In this document: in pieces, positions 1-63,583 of the stretch
How positions within the stretch are numbered: position 1 is the stretch's first letter
Layout of the letters: the number at the start of each line of letters is the position of its first letter
Assembly: GCA_022843165.1 (NCBI GenBank)
Contig: JALHOD010000011.1
Span: 1-64,000, forward strand
DNA length: 64,000 bases
From: Pseudorhodoplanes sp.
GTDB taxonomy: Bacteria > Pseudomonadota > Alphaproteobacteria > Rhizobiales > Xanthobacteraceae
Direction: 5' to 3'
Notes under the pieces: generated by a model
What the model was told of the DNA's origin: nothing
Seen by the model: the letters and a program-made list of their open reading frames with translations, nothing else
Database searches by the model: none
Program-made: the position numbers and the translations under genes

Positions 1-74
1 TGGCTGGGGAACTAGGATTCGAACCTAGATTAACGGAGTCAGAGTCCGCTGTTCTACCGTTGAACTATTCCCCA
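1..74 (-). tRNA. tRNA-Gln (anticodon CTG), CCA encoded
   Basis: Reverse complement TGGGGAATAGTTCAACGGTAGAACAGCGGACTCTGACTCCGTTAATCTAGGTTCGAATCCTAGTTCCCCAGCCA; 7-bp acceptor stem, anticodon loop CTCTGAC, TTCGAATC T-loop. Confidence 0.95.
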
Positions 75-14132: not shown

Positions 14133-15016
14133 CGGAATGCGGGCGCGCCGCCTTCGTGCGGCAGATCGGTCTGGGGATTCCAGGCTGCAATGTCCGCGGT
14201 GCCGGCCTCGGCCGACCAGCGGCCCGGCTTGCCGTCGTGATGCGCGCCTTGTGCGAGATATTCCCTGAAGGTTTCCCGCGAGATGATGCGGAATCCGAGG
14301 TCGCGCATCGCCGACGCCGTGCTCTTGGCGTCCGCCAGTGCAAAACCCCAGCGCGAGAGATGCCACATCAGCGCGGTGGTGCCGACCTTGGACGCGTTGC
14401 GCTCGCGGAAGAACTGCGACTCGCCGAAGAAGATGTTGCCGATCGCGACGCCATATCCGCCGCCCACCAGCTCTCCCTCGGCATTCCAGACCTCGTAGGA
14501 ATGCGCATGGCCGGCGTCGTGCAGGGCCGCATAGGCGTGCATGATGCGCGGCGTGATCCAGGTGACGTGCCAGACCGCGCGGCGCGGATTGGCGCAGTTC
14601 TTGATCACGCGATCGAAGGCCTGGTCGAATGTGACGCGGTAGCGGCCCTGTCGCATCAGGCGGCGCACGTCCTTGCCGATGTGAAAATCGCGGAACGACA
14701 GGACGCAGCGCTCGGCCGGCGATACCCATTTCAGCGGGCCGATATGTCCGCTGGTGAAGAATCCGCGCCGGTACGCCGCGACCAGGGTCGGCACCGACAG
14801 GTCGCGCACCATGCCGACAAATCCGCCGGCGGTCGGCTGAGCGGATGGCGAGGGCAGGCCCGACGGGCGGCGGACGATGTCGTGCGCCCAGACCCGCAGC
14901 ATCGGCCCGAGCAGGCCGATGCGGTCAGGCTTCAGCGCCCAGATCGCGCCGCAGACAACGCGGCGGATACGCTCCACCGGCGTCTCACGGAACAGCATCT
15001 GGCGCGGATCGGTCAC
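13964..15016 (-). CDS. Aat-like (leucyl/phenylalanyl-tRNA-protein transferase family) protein, paralog A
   Basis: WITPRIMHAYAALHDAGHAHSYEVWNAEGELVGGGYGVAIGNIFFGESQF aligns with the Aat core. Confidence 0.8.
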   Translation of the reverse strand: MTDPRQMLFRETPVERIRRVVCGAIWALKPDRIGLLGPMLRVWAHDIVRRPSGLPSPSAQPTAGGFVGMVRDLSVPTLVAAYRRGFFTSGHIGPLKWVSPAERCVLSFRDFHIGKDVRRLMRQGRYRVTFDQAFDRVIKNCANPRRAVWHVTWITPRIMHAYAALHDAGHAHSYEVWNAEGELVGGGYGVAIGNIFFGESQFFRERNASKVGTTALMWHLSRWGFALADAKSTASAMRDLGFRIISRETFREYLAQGAHHDGKPGRWSAEAGTADIAAWNPQTDLPHEGGAPAFRQDIFSIETKNPSVSVPRGVISKPSSDSLTARLNIIARSPIAWLAIALGATAAILE

Positions 15017-15174: not shown

Positions 15175-16077
15175 TCAGGGCGCGTTGTGCGCCGGTTCCC
15201 AGGCCGCGACGGTGGCGGCGTCTGCGTCAATTTGCCATCGGTCGGATTTTCCGCCCGCGCCGGCGCCCTCGGCGAGCAGGCGCAGGAATTCGGCGCGCGG
15301 GATCGACCGGAAGCCCATGTCGAGAATGGTGGGCGTCGGATTTTTTCCGTCGTTGAGAATGTAACCCCATTGGTTCAGGTGCCAGTTCAGCACGGTGAAG
15401 CCGATCTTCGAGGTGTTGGGCTCGAGCGAGAATTGCGACTCGGTAAAGAAGATTTTTCCGAGCGCGACGCCGTAGCCGCCGCCGACAAGCTGGCCGGCGT
15501 CGTTCCACACCTCGAAGGAATGCACGAGGCCGGCGTCGAACAAGGCCGCATAGGCCTTCATGATGCGCGGGGTGATCCAGGTGACGTGCCAGCGGCCCTC
15601 GCGCCGTCCGGCGCAGGCCTTGATCACGCCCTCGAAATCGCGGTCGAAGGTGACGGTGTATTTGCCCTGCCGCATGGTGCGGCGCAGGCGCTTGGAAATA
15701 TGGATCTCGTCGAAGAACAGCACGCAGCGCTGCGCCGGTGAGGTCCAGGCCAGCGCGCCGAAATGCCCGGAGGTGAACAGCCCGCGCTTGTAGGCCTCGA
15801 TCAGGGTCGGCACCGACAGGTCGTTGACGATGCCGACGGTGCCGTCGGCTGCGACCTTCCGGTCCGGCGCGGGCAGGGTGGCGTCGCGGGAAAACAGGTT
15901 TTTGATCCAGAGCCGGGTGAAGGGCAGCAGACCGGCGGCGCGGTCGGGCTTCAGCGCCCAGGCCATGCCGAGCGCCACCCGCTCCAGCGTCGCCAGCGGC
16001 GATTCGCGGAACGCATTGGCGCGCAAGGCCAGGATTTCCTCGGCCGCCAGCATCAGGAGTTCGGGTTGAATCGGCAT
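15175..16077 (-). CDS. Aat-like (leucyl/phenylalanyl-tRNA-protein transferase family) protein, paralog B
   Basis: WITPRIMKAYAALFDAGLVHSFEVWNDAGQLVGGGYGVALGKIFFTESQF; same architecture as paralog A. Confidence 0.8.
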   Translation of the reverse strand: MPIQPELLMLAAEEILALRANAFRESPLATLERVALGMAWALKPDRAAGLLPFTRLWIKNLFSRDATLPAPDRKVAADGTVGIVNDLSVPTLIEAYKRGLFTSGHFGALAWTSPAQRCVLFFDEIHISKRLRRTMRQGKYTVTFDRDFEGVIKACAGRREGRWHVTWITPRIMKAYAALFDAGLVHSFEVWNDAGQLVGGGYGVALGKIFFTESQFSLEPNTSKIGFTVLNWHLNQWGYILNDGKNPTPTILDMGFRSIPRAEFLRLLAEGAGAGGKSDRWQIDADAATVAAWEPAHNAP

Positions 16078-20878: not shown

Positions 20879-20907
20879 TTGACAGACTTGTGTGATAGGA
20901 TTATATT
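20879..20907 (+). promoter_or_regulatory. Sigma70-type promoter for repeat-element copy 1
   Basis: TTGACA - 17 bp - TATATT. Confidence 0.7.
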
Positions 20908-21350
20908 CCACATACCTCGTCCGCCGAGGGGCGCTGTCATGAGGCGTCGTGAGAGCGGGACGAAGGACGGGATGCCGTGGAGATACGCGGCGTCGCCGTC
21001 CTGGACGGCGGCGGGCAATTCCCGCCCTCGGCCGGTGCGGCGCCCGCGCGCGTGGTTCGCAGCCACGCTCCCGGGCGACGGCGGGGCTCCGCCCGGAGGC
21101 ACAACGGCCTTCTGCCAGGAGCTGGCTGATGACAGGCGGCCCCGGTCGGCCGCCGTCAAAAGCGCGGCCCGCCGTCGCAGTGAAAACGCCGCCGACGGTG
21201 CGCCGAGAGGCGGCTGCGTTGTTCGCGCAACGCGGCATTATCAGGAACGGCCCTGCGTCTTTCGGCGCGCCGTCCCCCCTCTTTTTGTTGAAGAGGGACA
21301 AAGCGAATGAAGGCGATCCCGGCGCCTCAAACAATACGGGCGATGGCGCG
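20908..21350 (+). repeat. Dispersed structured element copy 1 (candidate ncRNA/leader)
   Basis: Near-identical to the minus strand of 63058-63553 over ~230 bp from CCTCGTCCGCCGAGG, plus a shared tail GGCGATCCCGGCGCCTCAAACAATACGGGCGATGGCGC. Confidence 0.8.
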
Positions 21351-21433
21351 CGTCTGCGTCCGGGTTGCACCTTGCCACGCCGGATCATCTCCTCTACTGG
21401 AACTCGTCCAGTCTGGGCCAACCGGGTGATGTC

Positions 21434-63001: not shown

Positions 63002-63057
63002 CTGTGTCTCGCTGGATGAACGAATGGGGAAAATGCGGCGGCATCGCCCGCAGGCAT

Positions 63058-63553
63058 GCGCCATCGCCCGTATTGTTTGAGGCGCCGGGATCGCCCTTAG
63101 TTTCTGCTGGCGCGCGTCGGGTGTTCCCGATTTCGCGCCACGCAGCGCGCGTCGGGTGTTCCCGATTTCGCGCCACGTAAAAAGTGAGGGGGATGGCGCG
63201 CCGGGCGGCGCAACCTTCCTTTCAAGTCTGCGATCCTTGCGGACCGCCACGCCTTCCGGCGCGCCATCGCGGCGAACTCCTTGCGGCGCCGGGCCGCGCT
63301 TTTGACGGAGGCCGACCGGGGCCTCCCGCCATCAGCCAGCTCCTGGCAGAGGCCCGTATTGGCCTCGGGCGGAGCCCCGACGCCGCCCGGGTGCGTGGCT
63401 GCGAACCACGCCCGCGGGCGCCGCACCGGCCGAGGGCGGGAATTGCCCGCCGCCGTCCAGGACGGCGATGCGGCGAATCTCCACCGCATCCCGTCCTTCG
63501 TCCCGCTCTCACGACGCCTCATGACAGCGCCCCTCGGCGGACGAGGCGATAGG
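63058..63553 (-). repeat. Dispersed structured element copy 2 (candidate ncRNA/leader)
   Basis: Homologous to 20908-21350 in opposite orientation; compensatory stem changes. Confidence 0.8.
63110..63178. repeat. Tandem duplication, 2 x 35 bp
   Basis: GCGCGCGTCGGGTGTTCCCGATTTCGCGCCACGCA repeated with period 35; contains TCGGG-TGTT-CCCGA hairpin. Confidence 0.85.
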
Positions 63554-63583
63554 ACTATAATCTAAGTATAGGAATATTGTCAA
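63554..63583 (-). promoter_or_regulatory. Sigma70-type promoter for repeat-element copy 2
   Basis: Minus strand TTGACA - 18 bp - TATAGT (17 bp if TTATAG). Confidence 0.65.

Follow-up and report, generated by a model that had tools for sequence, protein, structure and literature searches.

A dispersed, multi-copy family of promoter-bearing structured elements, probably noncoding RNA genes, in Pseudorhodoplanes and related bacteria

A structured element that occurs twice in the analysed window (the whole stretch of 64,000 nt of Pseudorhodoplanes sp. DNA) is best explained as one of a family of noncoding RNA genes that is dispersed in multiple copies and whose product would be a structured RNA acting in trans; we consider this reading probable. 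It fits better than a leader or a MITE because the -35 box persists while the promoter spacer drifts, neighbourhoods are common to different species, copies evolve in concert, their orientation is mixed and there is no signal of target-site duplication. In the proposed mechanism, each unit would carry its own vegetative-type promoter and produce an RNA of ~430-450 nt, with a fold made up of P1, domain B, domain C and a 3' hairpin, D. The RNA would act in trans, most likely by providing the scaffold for an RNA-protein particle, and the copies would spread slowly, remain in place over long times and be homogenised by gene conversion. If this is true, a large structured RNA that is multi-copy in at least 32 genera of a single family and shows rRNA-like concerted evolution represents a substantial blind spot of RNA catalogues. 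Should the unit turn out to be mobile, it would still differ from the short REP elements known in the lineage, as a repeat with several domains and a promoter of its own.

Anatomy, promoter and copies of the unit

The TTGACA-N17-TATATT promoter named in a preliminary description of this DNA is present at the 5' boundary of the unit (Table 1), and the other stems listed there are likewise found in the sequence. At the 3' side the unit extends ~60 nt farther, as far as the conserved hairpin D. At least five of the six TTGACA positions, at a distance of 16-18 nt from the -10 box, occur in 21 of 47 units compared with 0.8 in shuffled upstream sequence. Copies W1 and L002 are 97% identical and differ in their spacers, while TTGACA stays; a conserved ATTCCTA..TAGGA pattern is found in the spacer often but not always, and these two copies differ in it. 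Promoter conservation thus suggests that the unit is transcribed, and the predicted transcription start would be expected at ~20913-20916. In four loci from other genera (L298, L293, L294 and L299), TTGACA is replaced by a conserved upstream block, CTTATCCCCGC, possibly another type of promoter.

Table 1. Features of the unit at 20879 and of the second copy (window positions)
Feature	Position	Strand	Remarks
Whole unit	-35 box at 20879 to ~21356	+	limits set by comparing copies
-35 box TTGACA	20879..20884	+	5' boundary of conserved unit; kept elsewhere despite differing spacer
-10 box TATATT	20902..20907	+	17-nt spacer to -35 box
P1 domain	20917..20963	+	TCGTCC (20917-20922) pairs with GGACGA (20958-20963)
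Hairpin TCATGA-GGCG-TCGTGA	20937-20952	+	enclosed by P1
Variable hairpins P3 (GGACGG/CCGTCC) and P4 (around GCAATTCC)	20965..21033	+	missing from compact variants
Domain B	21034..21192	+	best-conserved core and basis of model R1; multi-branch, with hairpins and covariation
Domain C	21194..21274	+	long stem GACGGTGCGCCG/CGGCGCGCCGTC around a variable hairpin
Hairpin CCCTCTT/AAGAGGG	21277..21298	+	contains the T-run of the preliminary description
3' hairpin D, CCCGGCGCCTCAAACAATACGGGCG	21318..21342	+	common to class 1 and class 3 units
3' tail ATGGCGCGCGTCTG	21343..21356	+	homology ends here
Second copy	63049..63583	-	TTGACA 63583-63578, domain B 63427-63269, D hairpin 63089-63065

Two of the structural details first proposed had to be revised. 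The hairpin CCTCG-TCCGC-CGAGG behind the promoter is indeed present at 20915-20929, but its fully paired form is possible in only 24 of 77 anchored sequences (a set that includes a few off-target matches); its 5' arm instead tracks the distal partner with which it forms P1. The T-run CCCCCCTCTTTTT is not a terminator but the 5' arm and loop of the CCCTCTT/AAGAGGG hairpin, and the 3' end of the unit showed no identifiable terminator. Compact variants lack both P3 and P4, with domain B joined directly to P1. In other copies the boxA-like motif described below lies within the 3' tail or stands in its place.

The second copy, placed by the preliminary description at 63.5 kb on the other strand, was recovered by the repeat finder as 294 nt at 89% identity together with a 47-nt block at 94%. 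A tandem GTGGCGCGAAATCGGGAACACCCGACGCGCGC repeat is inserted before its hairpin D (63180-63100, minus strand); the same sequence occurs once each in L090 and L010. The source assembly (G000; 3.87 Mb, 37 contigs) contains nine long matches to the unit, corresponding to about nine copies, several of them at contig ends, as well as at least four second-class units and ~5 third-class units. Ten class 1 copies were found in the complete 4.97-Mb genome of a genus-mate (G007). Class 3 units (L101, L102, L103 and related loci), of which genome G005 holds many partial copies, have the D end and the promoter style in common with class 1 but a different body. This body also covaries, with 93% of cells paired and 33 compensatory cells versus 11 in shuffled alignments (maximum 22), the structure having been predicted by RNAalifold from the same rows as were counted, without a hold-out.

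Covariation, coding tests and distribution

The sense strand of the element folds 6.5 sd below dinucleotide shuffles and the antisense strand 3.3. For domain B, an alignment of 42 distinct sequences had 98.1% of cells paired, and both-side changes numbered 190 against a shuffled mean of 53 (0 of 500 shuffles) and at most 16 when the structure was slid along the alignment. When the structure was derived from seven own-genome rows only, the 35 other rows were 87.5% paired with 254 compensatory cells, compared with at most 60 for the slid versions. Shuffles leave the relatedness among copies in place and are weaker controls than the slid versions and the hold-out. Domain B includes a hairpin with a conserved UCGCA-type loop. 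Of 94 sequences, 83% form P1 in register with 6 bp or more, versus 47% with swapped arms; the swap was restricted by register, free arm swapping being too weak a null, and the pattern-selected set includes a few off-target matches that are expected to weaken the contrast rather than strengthen it. A single-sequence minimum-energy fold of the whole element was also evaluated on the other copies (79.2% paired versus 77.4% shuffled; 129 compensatory cells versus a maximum of 123). It barely beats the shuffles and was therefore not taken as the structure.

The unit is noncoding. W1 and the other copies show 3-8 frame switches per pair, substitutions are spread evenly across codon positions (881/868/854) and the overlapping ORFs match nothing in Pfam. 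The check put forward in the preliminary description, for homologs that keep a reading frame and lose the stems, gave the opposite picture: no frame is kept and the stems are preserved. A second check from that description, for a known Rfam family, likewise did not refute the structured-RNA reading: neither the element nor 20 related loci match any family of Rfam 15, the best sub-threshold match reaching 24.6 bits versus a gathering threshold of 60. ARAGORN detected no tRNA or tmRNA in the element, a distant blastn search of the plasmid collection yielded no match, and no description of the RNA family was found in the open-access papers searched.

Within the window, the covariance model R1, built on domain B, is significant for the two copies only. 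Counting matches at E-values up to 1e-5, which are rough owing to a short calibration, R1 matched 102 of the 200 genomes from its own bacterial family, and 32 of 47 genera were represented. In an order-level sample, 6 of 298 genomes had R1 matches; two of these belong to the same family and the strongest outsider to a sister family. The core pattern also occurs in named records, among them those of Pseudorhodoplanes, Pseudolabrys, Tardiphaga and Variibacter. The element is thus dispersed across the lineage, as had been guessed, and on a larger scale than was supposed.

Neighbourhoods, concerted evolution and mobility

The genes on either side of the copy at 20879 are divergent, and the copy precedes an NnrU gene that has the same direction. 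This arrangement suits the explanation that the units regulate the genes beside them in cis, as 5' leaders or 3' elements, and a long 5' leader had been offered as an alternative from the start. The genes neighbouring the copies are, however, unrelated to each other, and among the 15-16 copies in G000 and G007, judged by eye, ~8-9 share the orientation of the downstream gene and 7 have the opposite one; these copies therefore have neither the consistent orientation nor the downstream gene class of a cis-regulatory leader or riboswitch. Because copies face either way relative to the next gene, the leader reading is left unsupported, and we regard cis control as highly improbable.

G000 and G007 have flanks in common at no fewer than five loci, namely that of the window's second copy and four others, and flank comparison revealed further same-locus pairs in other species. 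Identity between same-locus copies of different species is 0.72-0.83, against a mean of 0.735 for other cross-species pairs, and copies within a genome are 0.82-0.83 identical with segments of 100%. Same-locus pairs are hardly closer than others and identical segments occur within genomes; the copies therefore appear to evolve in concert.

A second alternative is a non-autonomous mobile element, MITE-like or IS200/IS605-like, which would be moved by an unlinked enzyme, with the folded DNA or RNA serving mobilisation and transcription being incidental. The copy number, the mixed orientation of many copies and the D hairpin common to otherwise different bodies all speak for it. So do copies that are not shared, such as the 20879 copy, which is missing upstream of the NnrU gene in G007, although that site is not a clean empty site because the neighbour on its other side differs. 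Multi-copy structured motifs are also often classed as mobile or repeat candidates (PMC11109978), a practice that adds to the case. Against it, target-site duplication gave no signal in 27 units (mean 3.74 versus 4.04 permuted, the units being taken to run from TTGAC to the vicinity of the D tail). Inspection of the unit ends showed no terminal inverted repeats. The kept -35 box beside a drifting spacer, the positions common to different species and the better folding of the sense strand are further points against mobility. Movement of the IS200/IS605 type leaves no target-site duplication, so that this route stays compatible with the data. Taken as a whole, the mobile-element explanation is in our judgement rather unlikely; it is possible that a mobile origin coexists with a function.

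A motif common to the rRNA operon leader, and related systems

A 16S search of the source assembly found no rRNA, and the rRNA operon (rrn) leader was therefore read from G007, where it contains GGCTGTTTGACAGGTGAATC and is followed by 16S. The motif GGCTGTTTGACA..TGAATC is present in the leaders of two rrn operons and in element tails. With up to one mismatch, GCTGTTTGA occurs no more than 70 nt from D in 21 of the 83 distinct copies, compared with 1% of background windows. The longer motif has six sites in G007, which are the rrn leader and five element tails, and eight in G225, one of them in the rrn leader and most of the remainder in element tails. Its matches in G005 are four tails, one degenerate copy and one further site. 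The reversed-motif control gave 0 sites. The last G005 match, in L326 near position 1500, has no recognised element beside it.

We call the motif boxA-like because of its location in the rrn leader and from general knowledge of antitermination. About a quarter of the copies carry this rRNA-leader motif at their 3' end, and their transcripts would probably engage NusB/S10, the Nus-factor machinery used for rRNA. For the RNA gene family, the anatomy, the fold, the lack of coding, the conserved promoter, the common neighbourhoods, the concerted evolution and the common rrn motif are observed; production of the RNA, action in trans, protein binding and Nus-factor binding through the motif are what we infer. 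Besides the lack of a terminator and the different upstream block of some copies, it counts against this explanation that the motif sits 3' of the RNA in the element, unlike in rrn, where it is upstream of the RNA, and that it is found in only a quarter of the copies. The motif, at the rrn leader and the element tails alike, together with the conserved loop of the domain B hairpin, could also indicate that the RNA serves as a decoy, either for Nus factors or for some other abundant protein that binds RNA, and so would regulate rRNA synthesis; with the motif missing in three quarters of the copies and the binding itself putative, such a decoy seems improbable. A more elaborate form of the RNA gene family reading is a lineage-specific RNA-protein particle, widespread and homogenised like rRNA genes and handled by Nus factors via its boxA-like tail, which may feed back on rRNA synthesis; we offer this as a doubtful, speculative extension. 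Through the common motif, a connection with the transcription of ribosomal RNA can be tested directly.

Among known systems, OLE, GOLLD and ROOL are likewise hundreds of nucleotides long, with an ornate covarying fold and without a known protein product; the family here differs in its ~10 or more dispersed copies per genome and its concerted evolution. None of the three was matched when all Rfam families were searched (their presence in release 15 being assumed). The Cuckoo/alpha-r sRNA families of Rhizobiales have CCUCCUCCC loops and a length of ~100 nt, a size that does not fit the unit. Br-REP1 and Br-REP2 of Bradyrhizobium, a related lineage, are also intergenic repeats containing stem-loops but are short palindromes in 3' UTRs (PMC5082802); by that description, a 450-nt promoter-bearing unit is set apart from them. 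MRSC-65-2 is similarly a multi-copy structured motif of inconsistent orientation; it is a single long stem, whereas the unit here is multi-domain and keeps a promoter (PMC11109978). The Rhizobiales-1 candidate motif (Weinberg 2010, PMC2864571) is another noncoding candidate from Rhizobiales, without an Rfam accession in the table of that study, and, compared by description only, is possibly identical with the present family.

The window has three further features. An alphaproteobacterial SAM riboswitch (RF00521; 74.7 bits) is located at 1421-1499 on the minus strand, and a tRNA gene at the window edge (4-74, minus strand). Two direct copies of a 300-nt repeat, 76% identical, lie 1019 nt apart at 14344-14643 and 15363-15662.
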